DNA of 32,941 bases from an uncultured Lachnospiraceae bacterium (GTDB lineage Bacteria > Bacillota > Clostridia > Lachnospirales > Lachnospiraceae), in NCBI GenBank assembly GCA_902777355.1, contig CACYTU010000042.1, forward strand, positions 1 to 32,941, in the 5' to 3' direction. Below the pieces are notes generated by a model, which was given only the letters and a program-made list of their open reading frames with translations, searched no databases and was not told where the DNA came from. Positions 7,584 to 23,537 of the stretch are shown piece after piece (position 1 is the first letter of the stretch; each line of letters begins with the position of its first letter). The position numbers were made by a program, and so were the translations under genes.

Positions 7584-7677
7584 GGTGTCTTTCGTCCTTT
7601 CTTAATCTGTAAGAATCTATATGAATTTATAAGATCAATCTACAAAAGCAATAAGAAGCAGTAAGTGGCCGGCACAT

Positions 7678-7853
7678 GGTGCCGTTTGTCTTTTTTACAT
7701 GTCGGCAGGTGTATCGCGCCTGGTGCCGTTTGTCTTTTTTACATGTCGGCAGGTGTATCGCGTTTGGTGCCGTTTGTCTTTTTTACATGTCTGCAGGTGT
7801 ATCGCGCTTGGTGCCGTTTGTCTTTTTTACATGTCTACAGGTGTTTCGCATTT
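7678..7853. repeat. 4 x 44-bp tandem repeat array
   Basis: Units start at 7678, 7722, 7766 and 7810. Each begins GGTGCCGTTTGTC, then T6, ACATGTC, and ends near a GGTGTATCGCG block, with only scattered substitutions. The 44-bp unit is not a multiple of three, so the frames that cross it shift at every copy and are not real genes. The first copy is preceded by GGCAC so that GGCACATGGTGCC forms a small hairpin before a T-run. The array lies between the MATE gene's 3' end and the acyltransferase start. Confidence 0.95.
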
Positions 7854-9383: not shown

Positions 9384-9432
9384 CGGGGAATCAGAATATT
9401 GGTCTCAGCCGCCGGCGGGGGTGTCCGCCGGT

Positions 9433-9633
9433 CGGATGTTCACTGCGAAGGACTATCGGGTCAGTGCGTCCGCCGGCCGGATGTTCACTGCGAAGGACTA
9501 TTGGACCGGTGCGTCCGGCGGCCGGATGTTCACTGCGAAGGACTATTGGGCCAGTGCGTCCGCCGGTCGGATGTTCACTGCGAAGGATTATTCGTCCCAG
9601 CCGTCCGTCAGGCGGATGGTCACTGCGATTGAC
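9433..9633 (-). repeat. 5 x 45-bp tandem array made from the 3' end of the HicB-like gene
   Basis: Units containing CGGATGTTCACTGCGAAGGA start at 9433, 9478, 9523, 9568 and (diverged) 9613. The 9613 unit is part of the HicB-like coding sequence. On the minus strand each unit encodes SFAVNIRPADA-like residues ending in an in-frame TAA, TAG or TGA, parallel to the authentic SIAVTIRLTDGWDE ending. The array thus repeats about 14 C-terminal codons plus the stop codon, in the same frame, four extra times downstream of the gene. Confidence 0.93.
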
Positions 9634-10509: not shown

Positions 10510-10597
10510 AAAGAGTCAGGTTATGTAAGTGCCGGCCGTCCGTAATACAGACGGAACGGACGGTACCGGAATCTGTCCGGAAGGCAGGTGGTATATT

Positions 10598-12160
10598 ATG
10601 GATAACAAAGATATTATCGGTGTCGGAAGCGATATTATGAATGCTGTGGACGATGCTGTTAACAGGGGGGATTTTTCGGGTCTGAACGAAACACTCCGCA
10701 ATGTGACCGGAGCCGCGGCGGGTACAGCAGCTGACGCGCTTCATGGTCTGCAGGAGCACCTGCAGGGATCCGGGAGCGGCGGCGGACAGGGATATCCGGC
10801 GGGAGGACCGCAGCAGGAGAGAACATACGGACACGCTGGCAGATCCTCCGGGAATTTGACAGAAGAGTATATGAACAGGGCGCCCGGAGCCCGGCATCAC
10901 ACGAGATATACCAGCAGAATCTCGCCTTTTCTCCAGAGGAAGGTGAGCAGGTCAGGCGGGATCGGAAAGATCATAGGAGGCGTCACCAGCCTGGTATTCG
11001 CAGGGATAGCTTTCCTCGAAACGGTCGCGTCGGGCTTCCTGGGGCTGTTCTCTCCCGTAGGAAGCGAAGTCTTTTCGGCCTGGAGCATTGTCTCGCTGAT
11101 TTTCTGCGTGGGATTGGGAATCCTGGGAGGGATTCTGGTCAAAAAGGGACAGGAACGCAGGCAGCTGATACGGGAATATTATGAGTACGGTAAAGTCGCG
11201 GGGACCAGCGAGTACATTGAGATCAGTAAGCTGGCCCGTGCTGTGGGCGAGAGCCGTGAGACCGTTCTGAACAACCTCGAGAAGATGATGAGCGAGGAAA
11301 TGCTGCCCGCCGCCTGGTTTGACAGACAGAAGACGACTCTCATGCTGTCGGAAGATATCTACAATGAGTACCTGAGACTGGAGAGGGAGCGCCTGGAGCA
11401 CGAGGCTGAGGAGGCAAAAGCCCGGATGGCAGCTCAGGGGGCAGGACCTGCCCCGGCGGCAGCCGCGCAGGTGGTTGACGATGACCTGAAGCTTAAGCCG
11501 GAAGACGATAAGCTCCCGTCACAGGCCAGGGCGATCGTTGAGGAAGGCCTCCTTTATATAGGAAAAATCCGCAATTTCAACAGGGATATCGGAGACGAGG
11601 AGATCTCCTCCCAGCTCGCTCATCTTGAGATTACGATGAAGCGCATTATCGATCAGGTCCGCAAAGACCCGTCCAGCGCATCCAACCTCAGAAGGCTGAT
11701 GGTCTATTATCTGCCCACGACAATGAAACTGCTGGAGGCTTACGGGGAACTGGACCGCCAGCCTGTGGAGGGAGAAAATATCATCTCCACCAAGCAGGAG
11801 ATCAGAGAGGCGCTCGGTACGATCAACGATGCCTTCGAAAGGCTGCTCGACAGTATGTTCCAGGATATGGCATGGGATATTTCCTCTGACATTTCCGTCA
11901 TGAAGACGATGATGGAACAGGACGGTCTGACCGGCGAAGGAATAAGACAGACGGCTTCAGGAAGGCCGGGCAGCAGTGAGCAGACTGTGTCCGGTACGCC
12001 TGCTCAGCCTCAGTCTCAGCCTTCCGGTTATATGGACGGATATACAGAAGGGTATACGGAGGGCTACTCCGAAGAATCGGGTGCCGCACAGGCGGCTGCG
12101 CCGCCGCAGGAAGCCGCCGAGGAGTCCGCAGGCGGAATCCATCTCACTTTCGGAGAATAA
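10598..12160 (+). CDS. xpaC: XpaC-family membrane protein (5-bromo-4-chloroindolyl phosphate hydrolysis family)
   Basis: A 520-residue protein from ATG 10598 (AGGTGG ribosome binding site; the open frame extends further upstream without one). The N-terminus (1-115) is Gly/Gln-rich and disordered-looking. Two membrane helices follow (about 120-150 and 157-182), then a cytoplasmic helical region with EYIEISKLARAVGESRETVLNNLEKMM and a conserved DDKLPSQARAIVEEGLLYIGKIRNFN block that begins the XpaC domain. The tail has YMDGYTEGYTEGYSEE repeats and ends in HLTFGE. The family name comes from a phosphatase-indicator phenotype, not a shown reaction. XpaC is typically encoded next to TelA, as here (101 nt), suggesting a joint envelope-stress or toxic-anion role. 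The second gene's SLSFGEPE motif echoes the C-terminal FGE. Confidence 0.85.
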   Translation: MDNKDIIGVGSDIMNAVDDAVNRGDFSGLNETLRNVTGAAAGTAADALHGLQEHLQGSGSGGGQGYPAGGPQQERTYGHAGRSSGNLTEEYMNRAPGARHHTRYTSRISPFLQRKVSRSGGIGKIIGGVTSLVFAGIAFLETVASGFLGLFSPVGSEVFSAWSIVSLIFCVGLGILGGILVKKGQERRQLIREYYEYGKVAGTSEYIEISKLARAVGESRETVLNNLEKMMSEEMLPAAWFDRQKTTLMLSEDIYNEYLRLERERLEHEAEEAKARMAAQGAGPAPAAAAQVVDDDLKLKPEDDKLPSQARAIVEEGLLYIGKIRNFNRDIGDEEISSQLAHLEITMKRIIDQVRKDPSSASNLRRLMVYYLPTTMKLLEAYGELDRQPVEGENIISTKQEIREALGTINDAFERLLDSMFQDMAWDISSDISVMKTMMEQDGLTGEGIRQTASGRPGSSEQTVSGTPAQPQSQPSGYMDGYTEGYTEGYSEESGAAQAAAPPQEAAEESAGGIHLTFGE

Positions 12161-12261: not shown

Positions 12262-13500
12262 ATGGAGGGAAAAATGGCAGACGAGATAAGAACAGATGTA
12301 CCGGAGATGATGACAGGGACTGCTTCCGCAGCCCAGGCTGATCCAGCAGCCGATCCGCTTGCCGGACTGGCAGCTGCGGCGCCTTCACTCTCGTTCGGAG
12401 AGCCGGAACCCCAGGCCGTGCAGGAAGCTCCTGCTCCTGCCCAGCAGGAGGCCCCCCAGGCGGAGCCGGAAGAGGCAGTGCTCACACCTGAAGAGATCAA
12501 AATGGTGGATGCCTTCGTCAAGCAGATTGATATCACCAATACGCAGGCTGTCATGACCTACGGTGTGGGAACCCAGAAAAAGATGGCAGATTTTTCCGAG
12601 AAGACTCTGGACAGCGTCAGGACCAAAGATCTGGGAGAAGTCGGCGGAATGATCACATCCCTGGTGACCGAGCTCAGGAATTTCGATGTGGAGGAAGAGG
12701 AGAAGGGCCTTTTCGGCTTCTTCAAAAAAGGCTCCAACAGAATGCAGGAGATGAAGACCAAGTACAGCAAGGTCGAGACAAATGTCGAGGCTATTGCAGG
12801 GGAACTGGAGAAGCATCAGGTCCAGCTGATGAAGGATATCGACCTGCTTGACAGAATGTATGAACTGAATCTGGGCTACTACAAGGAACTCACAATGTAT
12901 ATCCTGGCGGGCAAAAAGAAACTCAAGGAAGCCCGTGAGACAGAGCTGAAAGCTCTCCAGGAGAAAGCGCAGAAATCCGGCCTTCCCGAGGACGCGCAGG
13001 CGGCCAAGGACTACGCAGAGATGTGCGACCGCTTTGAGAAAAAGCTGCATGACCTTCAGCTCACAAGAACTGTCGCCATGCAGACCGGACCCCAGATCCG
13101 CATGATCCAGTCCTCGGATTCTGTCATGGCTGAGAAGATCCAGTCCACGATCGTCAACACCATTCCCCTCTGGAAGAGCCAGATGGTCATCGCCATCGGC
13201 GTCGAGCATGCCAACAAGGCGGCCAGGGCGCAGCGCGAAGTCACGAATATGACAAATGAACTCCTGAAAAAGAACGCGGACGCGCTCAAACAGGCTACGG
13301 TTGAGGCGGCCAAGGAGTCCGAGCGCGGAATCGTCGATATCGAGACCCTCAAGCACACAAATGAAATGCTGATCTCCACGATGGACGAAGTGCTCTCGAT
13401 CCAGGCAGACGGCAAGCAGAAGCGCAAAGAGGCAGAGGCGGAGCTGGCAGGAATCGAGACCCAGCTGCGCGAGAAGCTCCTGCAGGCTTCCAGAATGTGA
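12262..13500 (+). CDS. telA: TelA-family toxic anion resistance protein
   Basis: A 412-residue soluble, mostly helical protein of the TelA/KlaA family, linked to tellurite and other toxic-anion or cell-envelope antibiotic resistance; the molecular mechanism is not established. The first 70 residues are an Ala/Pro/Glu-rich linker containing SLSFGEPE. The TelA core begins LTPEEIKMVDAFVKQIDITN (about 75-94) and includes EKGLFGFFKKG (about 152-162), YYKELTMYILAGKKKL and the family hallmark IPLWKSQMVIAIGVEHANKA (about 302-321), then long coiled-coil-like helices to the end. A GGAGG site precedes ATG 12262, although an upstream in-frame start cannot be fully excluded. It forms an operon with xpaC. 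A 28-bp tandem array begins 9 nt past the stop. Confidence 0.94.
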   Translation: MEGKMADEIRTDVPEMMTGTASAAQADPAADPLAGLAAAAPSLSFGEPEPQAVQEAPAPAQQEAPQAEPEEAVLTPEEIKMVDAFVKQIDITNTQAVMTYGVGTQKKMADFSEKTLDSVRTKDLGEVGGMITSLVTELRNFDVEEEEKGLFGFFKKGSNRMQEMKTKYSKVETNVEAIAGELEKHQVQLMKDIDLLDRMYELNLGYYKELTMYILAGKKKLKEARETELKALQEKAQKSGLPEDAQAAKDYAEMCDRFEKKLHDLQLTRTVAMQTGPQIRMIQSSDSVMAEKIQSTIVNTIPLWKSQMVIAIGVEHANKAARAQREVTNMTNELLKKNADALKQATVEAAKESERGIVDIETLKHTNEMLISTMDEVLSIQADGKQKRKEAEAELAGIETQLREKLLQASRM

Positions 13501-14154: not shown

Positions 14155-15168
14155 ATGAAAAGAAGCCTTGCTATACTTTTCATCCTGGTCATGATCGTAT
14201 CCTGTATGCCCGTCATGGCGTCAACAGGAACCAAAAGCGCAGACGGCACAGACAAAGCAGTGACTGTCCAGGCCAAGAGCGGATGGGTCGTATCCAACAA
14301 AAGGTGGATGTATTACGTCAACGGCAGAGCCCTGAAAGATACAGCCAAGAAGATCGGCACATATTATTATGGCTTTGACAAAGACGGCTATCTCTGCACC
14401 GGATTTTTCAACCTGCACGGCAAAACCTATTACGGAAGTAACAGGGTCGGAGCAAAGAAGTGCGGCGCTATCCTGAGAGGTTACTATCATATCGGAGACG
14501 GCTACTATTATTTCAATCCTGCCAAGTACGGTCTTCTGACCAAGGGATTTGCCAAATTTGGCGGCAAGCTCTATTTCTTCAGCACCAAGAACGGAAAACA
14601 GCGCCGCACCAAAGGCTGGTTCACCTATGGCACAGCAATGTATTATGTAAAGGCTGATGGCACAATCGCCACCAACACTACAATCGACGGCGTCAAGGTC
14701 GGTCCTGACGGCGCATGCAGGGATCTTTACGGAATGGACCGCAAGGCTCAGGGCTATGACAGCAATACCAGATACCTGATCCTTGTTAATAAGAGCAAAT
14801 ACTCTGTCAACTTCTACAAGGGATCCAAGGGACACTGGAGCATCATCAAGAGGGATATCCCCTGCACGATCGGCAAGAAGTCCTCTCCTTCCAAGTCCGG
14901 CAGCTTCAAGCTCTCCATCAAGAGTGTCCGCGCTTACGGCTACAAGGATTTCTCCGGTTCAACAGCATTCTATGCTACCAGAATCAATGCGGGTAACTTC
15001 TTCCACTCGATTCTCTACAAGCTCGGCTGCAGAAATCCCTACACACACAGCCCCAAGGATGCAAGACTCAGAAAGAGCATTTCCAACAGCTGCATCAGAC
15101 TTCCTCTTGCGGATGCCAAGTACATCTATGACAAGTTCCCTCGTTACACAAGAACAGTTGTGTACTGA
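14155..15168 (+). CDS. Secreted L,D-transpeptidase (YkuD) with glucan/choline-binding-type repeats, paralogue 1
   Basis: A 337-residue secreted protein. The signal peptide (MKRSLAILFILVMIV, cleavage near the VMA-S site at about 22-23) is followed by aromatic-rich cell-wall-binding repeats (about 42-175) of the GWxxxxxxxYYVNG, GYYHIGDGYYYFN and GGKLYFFSTKNGK type. The catalytic YkuD domain is about 200-337, with H284 (FHSILY) and nucleophile C313 in SNSCIRLPL, where many homologues have SHGCxR. Such enzymes make or exchange 3-3 peptidoglycan crosslinks or attach proteins to the wall. AGGAGGG lies 8 nt before the ATG. It is followed 51 nt later by a close paralogue, and both may share one promoter and the structured leader upstream. 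Confidence 0.9.
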   Translation: MKRSLAILFILVMIVSCMPVMASTGTKSADGTDKAVTVQAKSGWVVSNKRWMYYVNGRALKDTAKKIGTYYYGFDKDGYLCTGFFNLHGKTYYGSNRVGAKKCGAILRGYYHIGDGYYYFNPAKYGLLTKGFAKFGGKLYFFSTKNGKQRRTKGWFTYGTAMYYVKADGTIATNTTIDGVKVGPDGACRDLYGMDRKAQGYDSNTRYLILVNKSKYSVNFYKGSKGHWSIIKRDIPCTIGKKSSPSKSGSFKLSIKSVRAYGYKDFSGSTAFYATRINAGNFFHSILYKLGCRNPYTHSPKDARLRKSISNSCIRLPLADAKYIYDKFPRYTRTVVY

Positions 15169-15219: not shown

Positions 15220-16227
15220 ATGAAAAAGAGACTTGCGCTTCTGCTGGCAGTGCTCATGCTTGCGGCAAGTATGCCTGTTATGGCAATGGCAGCACCGACA
15301 ACAGGTGCAGAACAGGTGTCTGTCCAGGCGAAGAGCGGATGGGTAAAGTCCAACAGCAGATGGATGTATTATGTTAACGGCAGAGCCCTGAAAGATACAG
15401 CCAAGAAGATCGGCACATATTATTACGGCTTTGACAAAAACGGATATCTGTGCACCGGATTTTTCACCCTGCACGGAAGAACCTATTACGGAAGCACCAG
15501 GGTAGGCACCAAGAAATGCGGTGCTATCCTGAGAGGCTACTATCATATCGGAGACGGCTACTATTATTTTAATCCTGCCAAGTATGGCGCTATGGCCACG
15601 GGCTTTGTCAAATTCGGAGGCAAACTCTACTTCTTCAGCTCCAAGGACGGAAAACAGCGCCGCACAAAAGGATGGTTCTATCATGGCAGCGCCATGTACT
15701 ATGTGAAATCAGACGGCACGATTGCAACCAATACCACTATTGACGGCTACAAGATCGGCGCCAACGGCGCTGTGACAGATGTCAACGGCATGGATAAGAA
15801 AGCTCAGGGCTACAGCAGCAGCACCCGTTATCTCATCCTTGTCAATAAGGGAAAACACCTTGTCAACATCTACACAGGCTCCAAGGGCTCCTGGTCTGCA
15901 GTCAAGAGGAATGTTCCCTGCACGACAGGCAAACGCTCCACACCCAGCCCTTCCGGAAGCTTCCGTCTTGACCACAAGAGCCATAAAGGCCCTTACGGCT
16001 ATAAGGATTTCAAGGCTTCCACAGCCTTCTACGCAACCAGAATCTCAGCAGGAAACTATTTCCACTCGATTCTCTACAGGCTTGGCTGCAGAAATCCCTA
16101 CACACACAGCCCCAAAGATGCGACACTGGGAAAGAGCCGCTCTAACAGCTGCATCCGTCTGCCTCTTGATATAGCCAAATATATCCATCAGGTAACACCG
16201 ACGGGCACCCGTGTTATTGTTTATTGA
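15220..16227 (+). CDS. Secreted L,D-transpeptidase (YkuD) with glucan/choline-binding-type repeats, paralogue 2
   Basis: A 335-residue tandem paralogue of the preceding gene, collinear along the whole length. The signal peptide is MKKRLALLLAVLMLAA with a probable cut after the MAMAA region. The wall-binding repeats (about 40-173) are nearly identical to those of paralogue 1. The YkuD domain starts at about 198, with the conserved His in FHSILYRLGC and nucleophile C311 in SNSCIRLPL. The strongest divergence is in the substrate-side stretch before the His (SIKSVRAYGYKDF versus DHKSHKGPYGYKDF) and in the C-terminal 20 residues, which may mean different acceptor preferences. GGAGGA precedes the ATG. 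It is followed by a GGGGATT/AATCCCC hairpin at 16281-16299 without a T-run, then by the bidirectional terminator at 16494-16536. Confidence 0.9.
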   Translation: MKKRLALLLAVLMLAASMPVMAMAAPTTGAEQVSVQAKSGWVKSNSRWMYYVNGRALKDTAKKIGTYYYGFDKNGYLCTGFFTLHGRTYYGSTRVGTKKCGAILRGYYHIGDGYYYFNPAKYGAMATGFVKFGGKLYFFSSKDGKQRRTKGWFYHGSAMYYVKSDGTIATNTTIDGYKIGANGAVTDVNGMDKKAQGYSSSTRYLILVNKGKHLVNIYTGSKGSWSAVKRNVPCTTGKRSTPSPSGSFRLDHKSHKGPYGYKDFKASTAFYATRISAGNYFHSILYRLGCRNPYTHSPKDATLGKSRSNSCIRLPLDIAKYIHQVTPTGTRVIVY

Positions 16228-16616: not shown

Positions 16617-18317
16617 TCAGTCGAGCCTGCCGACACAGACGAGCAGGTAATCACCTCTGTCGAGGATGTTAAAAGGCTTCATTTCCAGGCTGAGGGCTTC
16701 TTCGTTGTAAGGCTCCAGGTCTTTGCGGGAGAGGGCGCGGACATCATAATCATAGCCGTAATAAGCCAGGAACTGTCCCATGAGTTCTCCGTCAAACTCC
16801 CAGTGATACCAGTCGATCGCGGAAGAGACCGTGGTCTGCACGAGAGCAGGGGATTTCCAGAGCTCCGTTCCGTCTATTTTATGGCGGATACGGCGGTAAA
16901 GATTCCCCGCCCTGGTCTTTCCGGTGTCGTGAGTGACATTGTAGAAAGCATCTCCGTTGGAGAAGTTTCCGACAAAGATGATCGGTTTTGAAGTATCGTA
17001 GTCGCTGGCCAGCTTGAAGCCAATCTGCTGCATGACGGCAGCCTCGTTGTCATACCTCTGGTTGTTGAGGGCCAGAAAACGGTGCAGGTGGGCTGTCTGG
17101 CGCCAGGTGATAAAGAGCAGGAGGACAAGGCCGCAGCGGCCAAGGACGACCGGCAGACGGTTTCTGTTCAGGATGCCGTTGTCGATCAGCCTGTAAAAGT
17201 CTTCCGCAGCCAGATAAAAGACGAATGCGCAGAAGACCATAAGGGTGATCGCGGTCCGGTAATACATGACAGTGCCCTGGATGATCGTGATCAGAAACAG
17301 GGAGAGGCCGGTGCAGATCCCCAGAAAAACGGGGAGTATACTCTTTCTTTTTACACAGAGAACGATGCACCTGACTGCGAAGAGAATGGTACACACAATG
17401 AAAATCGTGATCGGAAGATTGATGAGGGCGGCAACGCCATAATCGATCAGCACTCCCTTGAACAGGTCCATGAGTTCCTGCCCGGAGAGGGGCCAGCTGA
17501 TCCGGGTGGCGCCTGTGTGCTGATAAGTGAGATGCAGGACACCCATGATCCCGTACCCGATGACAAGGCGCAGGATAAAGGAGATGACCAGAGGGATTGC
17601 GAACCGCACGCCCTCAAAGAACCAGGCGGTCTTGCGGCCGGGAGCTGTCCCGCGGACGCAGTAGCGATAAAAGAGTATGATCAAAACGGTGGTGACATAG
17701 ACCGGCGCGATGGACTCAGCGCTGGAGATCACAGGGGTCAGGAGAATTCCCGCGAGCAGACATGTCCTGGCCTGTGACTGCAGGATACGCTGAGACTTGA
17801 TCCTGCGGGCAATGGAGCTTTTGCCCTCCGGCGGCTGCAGGTTTTCCTGTGCTGAGAGGAGCCAGAGCAGGATGACGAAGGTGCAGAAAAAGTCCCCCGG
17901 AACGATCAGGGTACCGCCGCAGGTGAACTCCCAGATCTCACAGATAATCGGGAAGGTGATAAAAGAACAGGCCGCGACCGTATAGAGCAGCGGGCGGTCT
18001 TTTTTTCCGTTGATCATAAAGAGGATGCAGGAGAAAGCGGTTCCGGCCAGCATCAGTAGACAGACGCTGAGGAATTTGTCCAGAAAAGGGACACAGGCGC
18101 CGAAGGAAAACAGCTTTTTCCAGAGAACGGCGCCCCAACGCAGTTCCCTGAGCCAGTAGGTGTCGTTGACATAGAGGGGAGTGGCCAGATCGTCCGCGCC
18201 CACAGTTCTGTTGAGCATGGAGAAACCATAGGCTCCAAATGTGTAAAAGAGCAGGGGAATCCAGTATTCCTTCCTGCCCGCAATTTTTTCGTTGAATTCT
18301 TTTATAAGTGAGCGCAT
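16617..18317 (-). CDS. GtrII-type membrane glycosyltransferase
   Basis: A 566-residue integral membrane protein with about eleven hydrophobic segments and a C-terminal extracytoplasmic soluble part (about 450-566). The N-terminal YWIPLLFYTFGAYGFSMLNRTVGADD, with an acidic pair after the first helix, and the overall layout fit the glucosyltransferase II (GtrII) family, which moves a sugar from a polyprenyl-phosphate carrier onto a surface glycan outside the membrane. It is last in the six-gene operon. The upstream EamA pair and GT2 supply exactly such a lipid-linked sugar, so this is the probable final transferase, analogous in role, not in sequence, to ArnT. ATG 18317 has AGAGGAAAA upstream. 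The acceptor is unknown (wall polysaccharide, teichoic acid or lipid). Confidence 0.8.
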   Translation of the reverse strand: MRSLIKEFNEKIAGRKEYWIPLLFYTFGAYGFSMLNRTVGADDLATPLYVNDTYWLRELRWGAVLWKKLFSFGACVPFLDKFLSVCLLMLAGTAFSCILFMINGKKDRPLLYTVAACSFITFPIICEIWEFTCGGTLIVPGDFFCTFVILLWLLSAQENLQPPEGKSSIARRIKSQRILQSQARTCLLAGILLTPVISSAESIAPVYVTTVLIILFYRYCVRGTAPGRKTAWFFEGVRFAIPLVISFILRLVIGYGIMGVLHLTYQHTGATRISWPLSGQELMDLFKGVLIDYGVAALINLPITIFIVCTILFAVRCIVLCVKRKSILPVFLGICTGLSLFLITIIQGTVMYYRTAITLMVFCAFVFYLAAEDFYRLIDNGILNRNRLPVVLGRCGLVLLLFITWRQTAHLHRFLALNNQRYDNEAAVMQQIGFKLASDYDTSKPIIFVGNFSNGDAFYNVTHDTGKTRAGNLYRRIRHKIDGTELWKSPALVQTTVSSAIDWYHWEFDGELMGQFLAYYGYDYDVRALSRKDLEPYNEEALSLEMKPFNILDRGDYLLVCVGRLD

Positions 18318-18391
18318 ATTTGATTTTCCTCTTTAGAGAACTGATCACAGAAACCAGTGACATCAGGCAGCAAGGCAAAGGAAAGAGCGGA

Positions 18392-18748
18392 TTATAACCT
18401 GGAGATAATCACGCCCGCGATGATGATCGCGACTCCCAGAGCCTTGCGGGGGGACACTTTTTCCTTCAGAATCAGGGCGCCCATGACAAAGACCCAGACA
18501 AAGCTTGTCGCGGTGATGCAGGGCATGACCGAGAGCGGGACATAGCGCAGGGCCACCTGATTGACGGCGAGTGTCAGGAACAGGAGTCCGTAGGAAACGA
18601 TGACGCGAACATTCAGGAATTTGCTGAAAAATCCTTTTCCGCCGGTCGTATTGGCCTGTGTTTTGAGCAGGATCTGGCTGAGTGCCGTGATGAAGGCGCC
18701 GATGATGGCTGCCGCATAGCAGACCTGAGGGGAGAGAAATGAACTCAT
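18392..18748 (-). CDS. EamA/SMR-like four-helix half-transporter, subunit 2
   Basis: A 118-residue protein with four hydrophobic helices and the EamA/DMT pattern ITALSQILLK in helix 1 and FVWVFVMGALILKEKVSPRKALGVAIIIAGVII at the end. Four-helix members of this superfamily work as dimers. ArnE and ArnF, which flip polyprenyl-phosphate aminoarabinose, are the nearest role model given the neighbours. It lies 48 nt after subunit 1 in the operon. ATG 18748 has AGAGGT upstream. The GtrII gene starts 74 nt later. A drug exporter is an alternative reading of the fold, but the operon context argues for lipid-sugar flipping. Confidence 0.8.
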   Translation of the reverse strand: MSSFLSPQVCYAAAIIGAFITALSQILLKTQANTTGGKGFFSKFLNVRVIVSYGLLFLTLAVNQVALRYVPLSVMPCITATSFVWVFVMGALILKEKVSPRKALGVAIIIAGVIISRL

Positions 18749-18796
18749 GGATGACTTACCTCTTTGTCTTTCAGAAAACCGGAGGATCAGAAAAAA

Positions 18797-19156
18797 CTAA
18801 TCGTCAGAGACACTGATGACCATTCCCAGCGAGATCACGGCGATGCCGATAATCTGCCTGATCGTGATGGTCTCGTGAAAAATCAGCGTGGACCAGATAA
18901 AGAGAAGGATATAGCTGAAGCCGCGGCGCAGATAGGCCGTTGTCAGTGGAATCTTCTCCAGAATCAGCTGCCAGCAGACGGCATAGATGCCGAGGATGAC
19001 GACGGCAAGCCCGAACCAGAAGAAATAGCCGAGCGAAAAGGTCTCATATCGCTGGGAGCCGATTTTCAGGCAGGGAGAGGTAAGGCTCTCCATGAAAACG
19101 GCGAAAGCGGCGAGGAGAAAGACATTGCTCCGCTTGTCGAGAAAATGCGTATTCAA
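18797..19156 (-). CDS. EamA/SMR-like four-helix half-transporter, subunit 1
   Basis: A 119-residue, four-helix protein with an EamA-type ending (FIWSTLIFHETITIRQIIGIAVISLGMVI) and an N-terminal NVFLLAAFAVFMESLTSPCLK helix. It is different enough from the next gene to suggest a heterodimer, as with ArnE/ArnF. The start is a TTG at 19156, chosen because GGAGGT lies just upstream and no ATG is close. The 95 nt before it, up to the ATP-grasp stop, contain a 19-bp repeat. Its predicted job is moving the lipid-linked sugar made by the GT2 across the membrane. Confidence 0.8.
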   Translation of the reverse strand: MNTHFLDKRSNVFLLAAFAVFMESLTSPCLKIGSQRYETFSLGYFFWFGLAVVILGIYAVCWQLILEKIPLTTAYLRRGFSYILLFIWSTLIFHETITIRQIIGIAVISLGMVISVSDD

Positions 19157-19196
19157 AAAAACACCTCCGTAAAAGACCCGGGATCCGATACCCTGC

Positions 19197-19251
19197 CGGG
19201 AATCTGCAGCCAGACCGGGGATCTGCAGTCAGACCGGGGATCTGCAGCCAA
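19197..19251. repeat. About 3 x 19-bp direct repeat in the operon gap
   Basis: GGGATCTGCAGNCAGACCG-type units follow one another at a 19-bp period between the ATP-grasp stop codon and the first EamA gene. It has no hairpin with a T-run and is probably a slipped repeat in untranslated mRNA. Confidence 0.75.
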
Positions 19252-20652
19252 TTATTCCCAGATCGGGCCGGTCACTGTGCCGTCAGGGGACTGGATTTCG
19301 ATCTGCAGGGTGTTGCGCACCTCCTGCATATTGGCTTCGAGTTCCTCGCGGGTCTTACCCGATACGATGACAGCAAGACGGGAAGTCTTGTCTGTTGCTC
19401 CCTCGCGATTTTCAAGGCCTGCGTGCAGCTTTGAAAGCTGATTGCGGTGCACAAAGGGGAGAGCGCACACTTTTTCAATTCCGTCCGCCCGGATGACGCG
19501 GCCGACGGGAAGATAGAAGGCCATGTAACCGCAGTACTGAAGCTGGGGGTGAATGACCGGCATTTCTTTCTGCTGTCCCAGAGCTATGTTGACCAGGAAC
19601 TGCTCGGTCTCCAGACCGCTGGAGAGATGGATCAGGTCGGAAGAGATGAAGACTCCGCCGCCGCGGGCGGCTGTCTCGATCAGGTAGACCTCATCTCCCT
19701 CCATTATATATTCACTGTGAGTGATTCCCTGACGCAGGCCGAAACCGCGGATGATTTTTTCATCCAGCTCGAGCACCTTCCGGCGAAGGGCGTCATCGGC
19801 TGTTGTCGGGAATATACGGCTCTTTGCCGCAAAGGCATCGGGAATATCAAAATAGAGAGTATCTCCGATACAGAGAGTGCGGTATTCATAGCCCAGCACC
19901 AGCGATTCCACGACAAACTCGCGGCCGGTGGCAAACTGCTCCACGATGACTTCCCGGCTGCTGGACCAGCGGGAGGCCTCCTCATATTTTTTTCTGATCT
20001 CCTGCTCGTCTGCGCAGACCTGTACGCCGCGGCTGCCCTGTGTGTCCAGAGGCTTGATGATCACTTTGACGGGAGGAAGAGCCGATGATGTTTCTGACTT
20101 TGCCGCATCCGCGGAATTATCTCCTCTGTTATCTCCGATATTATACCCGGTATTATTTCTGGTATTATTCGAGGTTTCCTGGGCCTTTGCCGCATCTGAG
20201 AGCGCCTGTTTTTCCTGCCTTTCCCGGCAGAGCTCCCGGTAAAATCCGACGGCCTGGTCCACAGAGGACACAGTCCTGTTTTTCAGCTGGGGGATTCCAA
20301 GTTCCGCCAGGCGGGCCCGCATGAGGCTCTTGTCGGTGAAAAGAATACCGGTTTCACAGCCGATTCCGGGAAGGCCCATTTTCTCAGAGACATAGGCGAC
20401 GCTCCGGACGGCGATGTCGGTCTGGTCGGTGATCACACCATCGATACCCTGGTCTTTCGCGAATGTCAGGATCGCCTCTTCATCGCGGACATCTTTGAGC
20501 AGTCTGCCCTTGATATAGGGGTAAAAGGCCTCGGAAATGACCGGCGCGGCCAGAAACACATCGCAGGTTTCAGATGCCTTTTGTACCAGGGGCAGCTGAA
20601 AGTCGCCGGCACCAATCACCAGCAGTTTTTTGCGTTTATTTAACTCAGACAT
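19252..20652 (-). CDS. ATP-grasp ligase of the glycan operon
   Basis: About 466 residues. The N-terminal preATP-grasp domain starts KLLVIGAGDFQLPLVQKA (about 9-26). The ATP-grasp core has VKVIIKPLDTQGSRGV (about 190-205), a VIVEQFATGREFVVES metal/nucleotide segment, and VYLIETAARGGG (about 322-334), where the first Glu is the Mg-binding residue. The family forms amide bonds through acyl-phosphate intermediates. Here the amino sugar made by the upstream aminotransferase is an attractive acceptor, but this is inference. A low-complexity Asn/Asp-rich insert (about 150-189) interrupts the N-terminal part. The start at 20652 is preferred because GGAG lies 7 nt before it; an ATG at 20664 is also in frame. 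A terminator-like hairpin ends 2 nt before that upstream ATG. Confidence 0.8.
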   Translation of the reverse strand: MSELNKRKKLLVIGAGDFQLPLVQKASETCDVFLAAPVISEAFYPYIKGRLLKDVRDEEAILTFAKDQGIDGVITDQTDIAVRSVAYVSEKMGLPGIGCETGILFTDKSLMRARLAELGIPQLKNRTVSSVDQAVGFYRELCRERQEKQALSDAAKAQETSNNTRNNTGYNIGDNRGDNSADAAKSETSSALPPVKVIIKPLDTQGSRGVQVCADEQEIRKKYEEASRWSSSREVIVEQFATGREFVVESLVLGYEYRTLCIGDTLYFDIPDAFAAKSRIFPTTADDALRRKVLELDEKIIRGFGLRQGITHSEYIMEGDEVYLIETAARGGGVFISSDLIHLSSGLETEQFLVNIALGQQKEMPVIHPQLQYCGYMAFYLPVGRVIRADGIEKVCALPFVHRNQLSKLHAGLENREGATDKTSRLAVIVSGKTREELEANMQEVRNTLQIEIQSPDGTVTGPIWE

Positions 20653-20665
20653 TGTTTTCTCCATA

Positions 20666-20724
20666 AAAAATGATTAAAGCATTGCGGAGGCGCCCGGGGC
20701 GCGGCGCAATGCGGCTTTAATCAT
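20666..20724 (-). terminator. Terminator-like hairpin immediately before the ATP-grasp gene (possible attenuator)
   Basis: On the minus strand ATGATTAAAGC (20714-20724) pairs exactly with GCTTTAATCAT (20670-20680). Inner GCATTGCG/CGCAATGC arms (20679-20686/20705-20712) and a GC-rich tip complete it, and it is followed at once by a T-run that abuts ATGGAG, the ribosome binding site region of the ATP-grasp gene. There is no room for a separate promoter between the T-run and the gene, so transcripts of the four distal genes must start upstream and read through it. Confidence 0.75.
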
Positions 20725-20764
20725 ATGTTAAAAGCTGCGGAAAAAGGCAGCCCCTGCCGTCACA

Positions 20765-20916
20765 CATCAGACTGGCGGGTTCTTTGTACAGAAGCCGGGA
20801 TACATCAGACCGGCGGGTTCTTTGTACAGAAGCCGGGATACATCAGACCGGCGGGTTCTTTGTACAGAAGCCGGGATACATCAGACCGGCGGCTTCTCAG
20901 TACAAAAACAGGCACA
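20765..20916. repeat. 4 x 38-bp tandem array between GT2 and ATP-grasp genes
   Basis: Units start at 20765, 20803, 20841 and 20879 with CATCAGACCGGCGGGTTCTT and end AGAAGCCGGGATA; the last is degenerate. It lies just past the GT2 stop and before the terminator-like hairpin. The unit is not a multiple of three, so the frames crossing it are spurious. Confidence 0.95.
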
Positions 20917-20926
20917 CATCCACGCA

Positions 20927-21907
20927 TCAGGCGATGCGTTTTGGGGGCGCTTCGTCCGGCAGATTGATCTTGTCACGGATCACGAACTGGGGCGAATTAT
21001 TCAGGGATATATAAATTCGTCCGACATATTCTCCGATCAGTCCCAGCATAAACATGATCATGCCGGTGGAAAAGAGCAGTACGGCCATGGTGGAACTGTA
21101 TCCCAGCGGAATTGCGGGATTCAGAAGCTTTTTGATCACGGTCCTCATACCCATGAGTACTCCCAGGACAGCCCAGAGCACGCCGATCCCTGTCGCGATG
21201 CGCAGGGGCTTGACCGAAAAAGCGGTGAAGCTGTTCATCCACAGGGAAAAGGACTTGCGGAAGCTGTAGTGGCCGACACCGATGGTGCGGACCCGCTCCT
21301 CCATATCCACATTGATGACGCGCTTTGTCGCCCGGAGCATCAGGCCGGAGAGATAGGGATAGGGATTTGTATATTTGATCACTTCGTCCTTGACGAACTT
21401 TTTCATCACGGAGAAGTTTGAGAATTTCAGCTTGGGGTCTTTGCCCAGCAGCCAGGTGGCGACGCGGTCATTTACTGCTGATCCGAAGTTTTTGAAGCCC
21501 GACTGCGTCTTTTTGCGATATCTGGCGATAGAGACGTCATAATCTCCATTAATCAGGGGATCCAGAAGATCCCAGAGCCTGTCCGCGGGACACTGCTGGT
21601 CGTCGTCGATGAAGACGACATAGTCGCCTGCCGCATAGTGGCATCCGCAGATCAGGGCGTTGTGACGGCCTCCGTTTTTGGCCAGGTCGATGACGCCCAC
21701 TTTGGGGTCCTTAGCGGCGATTTCCTGCAGGACACTCAGCACGTTGTCGGGAGAGCAGTCGTTGACAGCCACGATCTGATAGTCAAAGTCGGGCTTCTGT
21801 GCCACGACATCGCGGATCTCGTCGATCACCAGACCGACGGAACCCTCGCTGGCGTAACAGGGGATGATGAAGGAGATAATGGACTTCTTGTCTGTGCTAT
21901 TACTCAT
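20927..21907 (-). CDS. Polyprenyl-phosphate glycosyltransferase, GT2 family (GtrB/ArnC/DPM1-like)
   Basis: A 326-residue membrane-bound enzyme that should transfer a sugar from a nucleotide donor to undecaprenyl phosphate on the cytoplasmic face. The GT-A domain begins ISFIIPCYASEGSVG, has the nucleotide-binding VNDCSPD (about 48-54) and the metal-binding DDD at 101-103, and ends near 220. Two C-terminal helices follow (about 225-250 and 262-288), the second carrying the hallmark GLIGEYVGRIY of ArnC/GtrB proteins. Its start overlaps the end of the aminotransferase gene by 8 bp, so the two are translationally coupled; the ribosome binding site is weak. The probable donor is the amino sugar produced by that enzyme. 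A 38-bp tandem array follows directly. Confidence 0.92.
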   Translation of the reverse strand: MSNSTDKKSIISFIIPCYASEGSVGLVIDEIRDVVAQKPDFDYQIVAVNDCSPDNVLSVLQEIAAKDPKVGVIDLAKNGGRHNALICGCHYAAGDYVVFIDDDQQCPADRLWDLLDPLINGDYDVSIARYRKKTQSGFKNFGSAVNDRVATWLLGKDPKLKFSNFSVMKKFVKDEVIKYTNPYPYLSGLMLRATKRVINVDMEERVRTIGVGHYSFRKSFSLWMNSFTAFSVKPLRIATGIGVLWAVLGVLMGMRTVIKKLLNPAIPLGYSSTMAVLLFSTGMIMFMLGLIGEYVGRIYISLNNSPQFVIRDKINLPDEAPPKRIA

Positions 21908-23036
21908 TTTCTTTGAAATACTCCATGGCAGTGCGGATGACGTACTGCTGATCCTCGGGGGTCAGGCCGTAATAGAGAGGCAGGCGCACCAGACGGTCGC
22001 TCTCGGATGTGGTATAGCGGTCCTCCCCGTGGAAGCGGCCGAATTTCTCTCCGGCGGGAGAGGAGTGGAGAGGCACATAGTGGAACACAGTGACGATGCC
22101 CCTGTCCTTCATATACTGGATGAATGCGGAGCGGTCTTCCAGGTCGCGCAGCTTGATGTAGTACATGTGGGCGTTGTGGACACAGCCTTCGGGAATGAAG
22201 GGAACTTCGATACGGCCTGCTTCGGCGAGCGGAGCGAAGGCATCGGAGTAAGTTTTCCAGATCGCCAGCCTGTTGTCATTGATCTTGTCCGCCTCCAGGA
22301 GCTGGGCCCAGAGGTAGGCCGCGTTCATGTCGCTGGGAAGATAGCTGCTGCCGTAGGCTACCCAGGTGTATTTGTCCACCTGTCCCCGGAAGAAACGGGC
22401 GCGGTTGGTCCCTTTCTCGCGCAGGATCTCCGCGCTGTCATTGTCTTCGGGATTGCGGATGATCAGCGCGCCGCCCTCGCCCATCGAGTAGTTTTTGGTC
22501 TCGTGGAAGGAATAGCAGCCGAAGTCGCCGATCGTGCCGAGCGGCCGGCCCTTATATGTGGACATGACTCCCTGCGCCGCGTCTTCGATGACTTTCAGGT
22601 TGTGGCGGGCAGCTATGTCCATGATCGTGTCCATCTCGCAGGCGACACCTGCGTAATGAACGGCCATGATCGCGCGGGTTTTGTCTGTGATCGCCTCCTC
22701 CAGCTTCGTCTCATCGATATTCATAGTGTCCGGGCGGACATCGATGAAGACCGGTGTGGCCCCTGTCAGGACGATGGCTGTTGCCGTGCTGGAAAAAGTG
22801 AAGCTGGGTACCAGGACTTCATCGCCTGCTTTCAGGCCGCACAGAAGCGTCGCCATCTCGAGCGCGGTCGTTCCGCTGGTGGTCAGCAGGGCCTTCTGCG
22901 CACCGAAGCGCTCCTCCAGAAAGGAGTGGCACTTTTTGGTGAAGCTTCCGTCACCGCAGATCTTGTGAGCATCGATGGCCTGTTTTACATAATCAAGTTC
23001 AGTCCCGATGAACGGGGGGACATTGAAAGGAATCAT
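21900..23036 (-). CDS. rffA: DegT/DnrJ/EryC1 sugar aminotransferase (dTDP-4-amino-4,6-dideoxygalactose transaminase-like)
   Basis: PLP enzyme expected to convert a nucleotide-linked 4-keto-6-deoxy sugar to the 4-amino sugar using glutamate. At 378 residues it is normal for the RffA/WecE branch. The N-terminal MIPFNVPPFIGTELDYV is typical of that branch. TSGTTALEMA (53-62), EDAAQ (151-155) and FHETKNYSMGEGGAL with the PLP lysine K181 are all present. No dTDP-sugar dehydratase or thymidylyltransferase is in the window, so the keto-sugar precursor must come from elsewhere. It is the first gene of the minus-strand operon. ATG 23036 has AGGAG about 12 nt upstream, and the leader carries the hairpin-plus-tail motif at 23076-23100. 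Confidence 0.92.
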   Translation of the reverse strand: MIPFNVPPFIGTELDYVKQAIDAHKICGDGSFTKKCHSFLEERFGAQKALLTTSGTTALEMATLLCGLKAGDEVLVPSFTFSSTATAIVLTGATPVFIDVRPDTMNIDETKLEEAITDKTRAIMAVHYAGVACEMDTIMDIAARHNLKVIEDAAQGVMSTYKGRPLGTIGDFGCYSFHETKNYSMGEGGALIIRNPEDNDSAEILREKGTNRARFFRGQVDKYTWVAYGSSYLPSDMNAAYLWAQLLEADKINDNRLAIWKTYSDAFAPLAEAGRIEVPFIPEGCVHNAHMYYIKLRDLEDRSAFIQYMKDRGIVTVFHYVPLHSSPAGEKFGRFHGEDRYTTSESDRLVRLPLYYGLTPEDQQYVIRTAMEYFKENE

Positions 23037-23100: not shown

Positions 23101-23221
23101 AGACCCGGATGATTTAAGCTGCGCACTGCTTCTTTACAAAGAAATCGCTGAATCATACCCATACCCCACAAGTATAACACGACTTGCATATGTTTGCACC
23201 TTTATCATTTTCTCCGCTGCC

Positions 23222-23375
23222 CGATCGTGCCGGATCCGCCGCCCGATCGTGCCAGGTCCGCCGCCCGATCGTGCCAGGTCCGCCGCCCGATCGGGCCAGG
23301 TCCGCCGCCCGATCGTGCCGAATCCGCCGCCCGATCGTGCCGAATCCGCCGCCCGATTGTTCCGCTGCCTGATCG
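23222..23375. repeat. 7 x 22-bp tandem array
   Basis: Units CGATCGTGCCAGGTCCGCCG start at 23222, 23244, 23266, 23288, 23310, 23332 and 23354. Each carries the palindrome CGATCG or a close variant. It is GC-rich and non-coding, since the 22-bp unit breaks any frame. It lies between the divergent aminotransferase and AroK-like genes. Confidence 0.95.
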
Positions 23376-23399
23376 GTGCCTGTTCGTTACAGATCAGGC

Positions 23400-23537
23400 C
23401 TTTGACAGCAGGATTATTTTGCAGGTTTTTCTGCGCGGAACCGGTCTTTGGCAACAAGGATTTTTTGCAGATTTTTCTGCGCAGAACCGGCCTTCGACAG
23501 CAGGATTATTTTTGCAAATTTTCCTGCAAATATTCGG
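23400..23537 (+). repeat. 3 x 46-bp imperfect tandem array upstream of the AroK-like gene
   Basis: Units start at 23400, 23446 and 23492 with CTTTGACAGCAGGATTATTT-like sequence and share TGCAGRTTTTTCTGCGC. The last unit ends about 58 bp before the AroK-like start, so the promoter of that gene probably overlaps or directly follows the array. Confidence 0.88.

Follow-up and report, generated by a model that had tools for sequence, protein, structure and literature searches.

Which sugar does a small clostridial glycosylation operon make, and what is an ATP-grasp ligase doing within it? The operon in question lies in a 32,941-nucleotide stretch of DNA (hereafter the window; contig CACYTU010000042.1 of assembly GCA_902777355.1, from an uncultured Lachnospiraceae bacterium) and comprises six genes that encode, in order, an aminotransferase, a family 2 glycosyltransferase (GT2), an ATP-grasp ligase, two EamA proteins, and a GtrII-family protein. 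A prediction made from the sequence alone had cast it as an Arn-like amino-sugar pathway with an added ligase. Our analyses indicate that the operon probably makes and exports an N-acylated 4-amino-4,6-dideoxygalactose (Fuc4N) decoration by means of a three-component glycosylation system.

The six open reading frames (ORFs) are all open and co-directional, running from position 23036 to 16617 on the minus strand (coordinates throughout are positions in the window). To see whether this arrangement recurs, we searched 146 related genomes, own included, with the ATP-grasp protein as query (E 1e-20 or better) and found it in 27, all of the same genus. In 25 of these 27, a single contig carries the aminotransferase, GT2, and ATP-grasp genes next to one another – a grouping that is therefore not due to chance. 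In one exception a contig end splits the ATP-grasp gene (genome G021), and in the other (G043) the ATP-grasp gene has another place on the contig, away from a GtrII-aminotransferase-GT2-EamA-EamA operon that lacks it. The EamA gene pair is downstream in 24/27 genomes, following a PaaK-like gene in G046 and lying on a second contig in G021. No full pair was found in G043 (no match in the 640 bases up to the contig end), G024 (where the contig ends), or G035 (first EamA unmatched, second matched over 40 residues). A scan of named genomes returned 53 loci, the close ones recorded as Lachnospiraceae, Eubacteriales, or Clostridiales, including Sarcina sp. DSM 11001 (operon on contig NZ_FNFZ01000005.1, L104), and the more distant ones including an Oscillospiraceae, a Coriobacteriia, and Bacteroidota records. 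The original prediction of a six-gene co-directional unit is thus borne out by open frames, family matches, and conserved linkage, and its Gram-positive host is supported by the recorded names of relatives.

The sugar and the membrane machinery

The first gene (21900..23036) encodes a DegT-family aminotransferase (Pfam DegT, 300.5 bits). Its product exceeds the cut-offs of two WecE models (NF008687, 621 bits against 375; TIGR02379, 620 bits against 434.85) and falls below those for ArnB (NF008658, 188.7 bits against 631), PseC (203.5 against 423.5), and LegC (190 against 420). The closest solved relatives, matched over residues 1-374, are 4piw (579 bits; further entry 4zah) and 6blg (552 bits), which are named TDP-4-keto-6-deoxy-D-glucose and dTDP-4-amino-4,6-dideoxygalactose transaminases. 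The SFHETKNY segment around the lysine that binds pyridoxal phosphate is identical to that of 4piw in the alignment. Judged by sequence, the aminotransferase is a WecE ortholog, a predicted dTDP-4-keto-6-deoxyglucose 4-aminotransferase.

Enzymes that would supply its substrate are encoded on other contigs of the same genome, where RmlB (500.6 bits) and RmlA (471.7 bits) both score over their cut-offs. Among relatives, the RmlB gene is convergent with the operon in 11/27 genus genomes (loci L043, L046, L048-L053, L055, L056, and L058, with one gene between in L046), and RmlA is inside the operon at L044. A single gene run in G086 reads YfhO-RmlB-RmlA-EamA-EamA-PaaK-like-WecE-GT2-diverged ATP-grasp. 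At L099, from another family of the order, GtrII and two ORFs are followed by GT2-EamA-EamA-WecE-RmlA-RmlB, with no acylating pair. Because of the WecE model scores and the presence of RmlA and RmlB in the genome and in related operons, the sugar is most likely dTDP-Fuc4N derived from dTDP-4-keto-6-deoxyglucose, not 4-amino-4-deoxyarabinose (Ara4N).

These results bear directly on the Arn-like pathway first proposed, in which an Ara4N-type sugar and the ATP-grasp ligase would yield a positively charged surface as a defence against cationic peptides. The ArnB role for the aminotransferase does not survive (189 bits, against 620 for WecE), ArnA and ArnD had no match among the six operon proteins, which were the proteins searched, and relatives carry RmlA and RmlB. 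In addition, acylation would mask the sugar's own amine. Despite the Arn-like membrane genes described below, we consider this pathway highly improbable.

The second gene (20927..21907) overlaps the first by 8 nt and encodes a putative polyprenyl-phosphate glycosyltransferase (Glycos_transf_2, 88.5 bits) with C-terminal hydrophobic segments at residues 235-253 and 274-292. Its best NCBIfam models are PgfS (135 bits) and ArnC (107 bits), its solved relatives are sll0501 and ArnC, and the GEYVGRIY tail reported previously is present. The later intergenic gaps measure 262, 95, 48, and 74 bases, the first of them, between GT2 and ATP-grasp, containing a 38/76-bp tandem repeat.

Two EamA/SMR-like proteins with four helices each would form the flippase: subunit 1 (18797..19156, TTG start, predicted N-in; EamA 27.5 bits, marginally under the cut-off of 28.2) and subunit 2 (18392..18748, predicted N-out; EamA 28.3 bits, above it). 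With hand-set helix boundaries, the lysine/arginine bias of subunit 1 is zero or positive in 36/36 aligned rows (35/36 positive) and that of subunit 2 is negative in 36/36 (35 distinct) – the paired genes and opposite Arg/Lys bias of SMR heterodimers. This charge pattern would also suit an SMR-type drug or cation exporter unrelated to glycan, as would weak EbrA matches (22.5 and 21.4 bits) and a glutamate, Glu23, that is invariant in subunit 1. According to PMC9574504, lipid-flipping SMR proteins frequently have Asn at the position of the central Glu. Glu23 could not be aligned to the central glutamate of solved SMR proteins (best match E 0.26, starting beyond that residue), and we make no claim about their equivalence. 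Against an exporter, models of the EbrA/QacC type reach 22.5 bits at most (cut-off 160), and the ArnE/F models score higher, with ArnE giving 41.3 bits for subunit 1 (EbrA, 21.4) and 35.4 for subunit 2. The pair also stays with GT2 or WecE in the operons of several lineages (L099, L121, L190). We therefore regard an exporter function as highly improbable and a lipid-linked-sugar flippase as the better reading of the pair.

The last gene (16617..18317) encodes a GtrII-family GT-C glycosyltransferase (57.1 bits, cut-off 30) proposed to perform the last step, the transfer to an external glycan. Of the six genes it is the least constant: a GtrII gene is downstream in 10/27 genomes and none follows in the other 17, a count confined to the operon's downstream side, as GT-C genes elsewhere in those genomes were not searched. 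At L121, L123, L124, L127, L129, and L130 the order is instead YfhO-aminotransferase-GT2-ATP-grasp-PaaK-like-EamA-EamA, with one extra ATP-grasp-like gene after GT2 in L124, and L118 has the first four genes of this order before its stretch ends after ATP-grasp. The Pfam scan for YfhO among these loci covered L121; the YfhO version was also seen in L190. The idea of GtrII as a fixed last step is weakened accordingly. Because YfhO fills the GT-C place in other lineages, the architecture is that of a Gram-positive three-component glycosylation system rather than Arn, with a GT2 bearing C-terminal membrane helices, a small membrane flippase, and a GT-C enzyme in one operon. In L196 the second EamA gene is followed by one for a 601-aa membrane protein; neither this protein nor its L201 counterpart had a Pfam match. 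An apparent lack of GT2 in L118, L121, L123, L129, and L130, where the ATP-grasp ORFs are 507-643 aa long, was discarded as a candidate exception. Because tblastn finds GT2 in its usual place in all five, the long ATP-grasp ORFs reflect read-through in another frame.

The ATP-grasp ligase and a PaaK-like partner

The ATP-grasp gene (19252..20664; ATP-grasp_4 PF13535, 36.4 bits, cut-off 27) sits between GT2 and the EamA pair in 24/27 genomes, in one case across two contigs. Its product conserves the catalytic residues K112, K204, E242, E330, and R334. Its predicted fold, compared with ligases as the original prediction had advised, is closest to an L-amino-acid ligase. The LAL_C2 domain scores below its cut-off in the window protein (23.7 bits against 29.4), and the diverged partner ATP-grasp at L197 passes it at 56.4 bits. 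Sequence identity to the L-amino-acid ligases BL00235 (3vot), RizA (4wd3), and BacD (3vmm) is 17-21%, and here the proposed amine substrate is an amino sugar. On the structural model, the window enzyme would work like the L-amino-acid ligases without being a filed member of that group. A low-complexity insert with many Asn, Gly, Asp, and Ser residues occupies positions of about 146-197 in the protein, has predicted local distance difference test scores under 50 at residues 169-194, and is absent from 407-aa relatives. Separately, two neighbouring or near-neighbouring ATP-grasp genes occur in L135, L136, L143, L146, L147, L149, L150, and L151 (recorded as one Bacillota, one Clostridiales, and six Bacteroidota), several of them near a DegT aminotransferase or RmlA/RmlB.

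The setting of other WecE genes offers a clue to the ligase's substrate. From 71 WecE loci we removed L054, L058, and L060, which have no aminotransferase match of 300 bits. Within 6 kb of the remaining 68, an ATP-grasp gene is found at 31, a PseH-like N-acetyltransferase gene at 21, and both at none. Because the two never occur together at WecE loci, these data suggest that the ATP-grasp enzyme N-acylates Fuc4N. The earlier view that this ligase, which has no Arn counterpart, could acylate the amino sugar thus holds as the most likely reading on fold and alternation.

The original prediction overlooked a second candidate enzyme, a PaaK-like adenylating protein whose gene is unlinked to the operon here and inside it in relatives. 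The gene is located between ATP-grasp and the EamA pair in L044, holds an equal position in L121, L123, L124, L127, L129, L130, and L131, and follows ATP-grasp in L196 and L201 (ATP-grasp, PaaK-like, EamA, EamA). The ortholog in the window's own genome lies on contig C47 and is 78.9% identical over 460 residues to the L044 protein. The assembly is rated 5.1% contaminated, but C47 is unlikely to be a stray contig because the surroundings of its PaaK-like gene are common to other genus genomes. In the numbering of the L044 protein, the adenylate-forming motifs T110SGSxGxP117, Y258GxxETG264, and G431KLR434 – the AMP-binding, YGxxET, and C-terminal NGK motifs – are present in 14/14 rows (13 distinct). 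Solved PaaK proteins match at E 7.5e-11. The PaaK NCBIfam models stay below their cut-offs (53 and 51 bits against 700 and 646), as does Pfam AMP-binding for the own protein (17.5 against 29.9), with no match at 0.001 for the L044 protein.

PaaK-like matches at E 1e-30 occur in 34 of the 146 genomes. Close orthologs (E 6.4e-162 or lower, weaker ones being 2.3e-141 or higher, a cut chosen after the list was seen) are present in 26 of the 27 genomes with ATP-grasp and absent from all 119 others; the one missing is G021, which is 77% complete. The eight weaker cases are G086 and seven genus genomes (G001, G018, G019, G031, G033, G047, and G057), the latter being those with a close aminotransferase (74-79%) but no close ATP-grasp. 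Six of these seven encode a diverged ATP-grasp elsewhere, directly before the PaaK-like gene in five. The comparison genomes G014, G015, and G061, of the GNAT type or its lineage, gave no diverged ATP-grasp match better than 2.9e-12. More broadly, a sample of 392 genomes from the order contains PaaK-like genes (E 1e-60) in the own genome and G442 only, and in 391 genomes from the class both ATP-grasp and PaaK-like (E 1e-60) are confined to the own genome and G812, so that the Clostridia-wide statistics rest on two genomes (2/391). The two genes are adjacent in G812, and WecE is on other contigs in both G812 and G442. Fisher values take no account of common ancestry, and we do not treat them as proof.

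Two side observations concern the surroundings of the PaaK-like gene. A UDP-galactopyranose mutase gene (PF03275, 267 bits) lies directly before it in the own genome, and genes alike in their first residues precede it in L176, L182, and the G086 operon; these genes are located at L165:8049-9212, L176:786-1979, L182:6057-7244, and L190:3621-4715. This hints that galactofuranose is part of the acceptor or chain. At L198:8847-10469, one open frame combines a weak TetR-like regulator match (20.5 bits, cut-off 26.1) with a PaaK-like portion that extends to residue 339 in L044 protein numbering, and similar long frames occur in L200, L203, L205, L206, and L208 – possibly a sensor derived from the PaaK-like enzyme.

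Alternative readings and a proposed route

The strongest competitor to an acylated sugar is that the core makes Fuc4N with a free amine, while the ATP-grasp/PaaK-like pair acts on another partner, such as an acceptor polymer or a peptide, and merely shares the operon. Cassettes without the pair exist (L099, L078, L085), and the pair can lie away from WecE (G812, G018, G019), as this reading would expect. Set against it are the position of ATP-grasp between GT2 and the EamA pair, its alternation with the PseH-like acetyltransferase, and the presence of WecE (E 1e-90) in 34/34 PaaK-like genomes versus 70/146 overall. We regard the free-amine reading as rather unlikely, and favour acylation of Fuc4N.

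Several observations nevertheless weigh against that preference. Neither ATP-grasp nor N-acetyltransferase is present at 16/68 WecE loci, and the alternation could track two operon lineages of the WecE gene, and so reflect descent instead of function. Operons lacking ATP-grasp occur at L061, L070, L077, L078, L085, L088, L099, and L187, and G033, the seventh of the genus genomes above, has only weak ATP-grasp matches (1.2e-13 and 2.9e-11, in frames of 1063 and 509 aa). By sequence, the top named matches of the window ligase fall outside the amino-acid ligases: they are an ATP-grasp/argininosuccinate-lyase model (83 bits) and 4dim, which was deposited as a phosphoribosylglycinamide synthetase. 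GT2 and EamA scores fall below the curated cut-offs for PgfS (500), ArnC (529), and ArnE/F (92 for the ArnE model), and the invariant Glu23 of subunit 1 counts in the same direction. Among genus ATP-grasp genomes the PaaK-like gene is inside the operon in G046 only, and it is unlinked in the window genome itself. In G442 the diverged ATP-grasp is near the PaaK-like gene with one gene between and the latter on the opposite strand, and no GT2, EamA, or WecE is found in the 20 kb read around the G812 pair. Finally, linkage and co-occurrence speak to partnership, not chemistry.

From the computed families, conserved linkage, co-occurrence, folds, and alternation of acylating enzymes, we infer the following reactions, as well as the sequence in which acylation and lipid loading occur, the donor of the acyl group, and the acceptor. 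RmlA and RmlB, encoded elsewhere in the genome, would provide dTDP-4-keto-6-deoxyglucose, which the WecE-type aminotransferase would convert to dTDP-Fuc4N. ATP-grasp and the PaaK-like enzyme from C47 would acylate the 4-amino group, most likely with an amino acid first and a further carboxylate on top. GT2 would then place the sugar on undecaprenyl phosphate, an antiparallel EamA heterodimer would flip the lipid-linked sugar, and GtrII (YfhO in other lineages) would move it to a glycan outside.

We tentatively extend this scheme to a possible further proposal: that ATP-grasp and the PaaK-like enzyme work together as a dedicated two-enzyme machine, building a two-unit acyl-aminoacyl side chain on the Fuc4N amine, on the nucleotide or the lipid carrier. 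This would represent an undescribed class of decoration – an amino-acid-bearing sugar added singly from outside by interchangeable GT-C enzymes – whose genes are scattered in some lineages yet kept as a set. An aminoacyl group would keep a positive charge, and a second acyl group upon it would remove that charge, so that the scheme speaks neither for nor against the cationic-peptide role first proposed.

Neighbouring features and relation to known systems

Tandem repeats are found in the window at 20761-20920 (38/76-bp units), 23213-23364 (22-bp), 23390-23527 (46-bp), 7677-7849 (44-bp), and 9423-9628 (45-bp), two arrays being upstream of the aminotransferase gene and another in the GT2/ATP-grasp gap. 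Two similar, tandemly arranged genes (14155-15168 and 15220-16227), in the first of which Pfam recognises a YkuD L,D-transpeptidase and, weakly, a choline-binding repeat, have relatives adjoining the operon in many genus genomes. A TelA toxic-anion-resistance family gene (424 bits) comes after a PF10112 gene (53 bits; the two at 12262-13500 and 10529-12160), and in many genus genomes the operon has the TelA-like gene at its flank. The window has no tRNA, and its base composition does not set the operon apart. A promoter and terminator scan gave 3 promoter-like sites (shuffle mean 4.4) and 11 terminator-like sites (mean 7.0, standard deviation 2.8), which we did not use.

The core of the operon is of a known kind. 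According to PMC7389260, YfhO and GtcA take part in teichoic-acid glycosylation of Listeria, Bacillus, and Staphylococcus, and the three-component systems CsbB-GtcA-YfhO and Lmo2550-GtcA-YfhO combine a cytoplasmic GT2, proposed to load undecaprenyl phosphate, with a small membrane flippase and a GT-C enzyme. Our operon resembles these systems, and homologous operons of its type contain YfhO itself. It differs in having an EamA pair for GtcA, a dedicated WecE, the ATP-grasp/PaaK-like pair, and, in the window genome, GtrII.

With the Arn pathway (ArnB, ArnC, ArnE/F, ArnT) the operon would share a 4-amino sugar on a lipid carrier, an SMR-type flippase pair, and GT-C transfer, here proposed from the genes. 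Of the original claim that every Arn role is supplied, lipid-carried amino-sugar decoration, an ArnC-like GT2, an ArnE/F-like flippase pair, and a GT-C transferase hold up, while the ArnB type and any ArnA/ArnD counterpart among the six proteins do not. The operon would use a dTDP-hexose rather than a UDP-pentose and GtrII or YfhO for ArnT, with an acylating pair added and ArnA/ArnD lacking from the operon. In enterobacterial common antigen synthesis, WecE makes dTDP-Fuc4N, which is then N-acylated – WecD acetylates it – and the sugar is built into a Wzx/Wzy polymer. In our scheme an ATP-grasp ligase would take the place of WecD, and a single-sugar route that of the polymer.

Table 2 of PMC4000134 lists CA_C2189 of Clostridium acetobutylicum, from a surface-polysaccharide operon, as an ATP-grasp amino acyl ligase, so such a ligase in a clostridial operon of this kind is already tabulated, and its authors discuss a transfer in which another operon protein attaches a peptide or glutamine to an amino sugar. 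As here, the ATP-grasp gene lies among sugar-nucleotide and glycosyltransferase genes; the passages on that operon that we consulted name no WecE, EamA pair, or PaaK-like gene. A search limited to open-access literature, and thus weak as an absence, found no description of a WecE sugar combined with an EamA pair, an interchangeable GT-C enzyme, and an ATP-grasp/PaaK-like pair.

The proposed pathway predicts a specific surface chemistry, acylated Fuc4N, in mostly uncultured Clostridia, several of them recorded as coming from animal-gut samples. It would bring WecE chemistry to the decoration of Gram-positive surfaces with single sugars and offers a candidate function for one ATP-grasp subfamily and one PaaK-like subfamily. 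The separated PaaK-like gene also means that the operon by itself does not reveal the whole pathway. Should the side chain contain an amino acid, the decoration may have a bearing on surface charge, phage binding, and host recognition.

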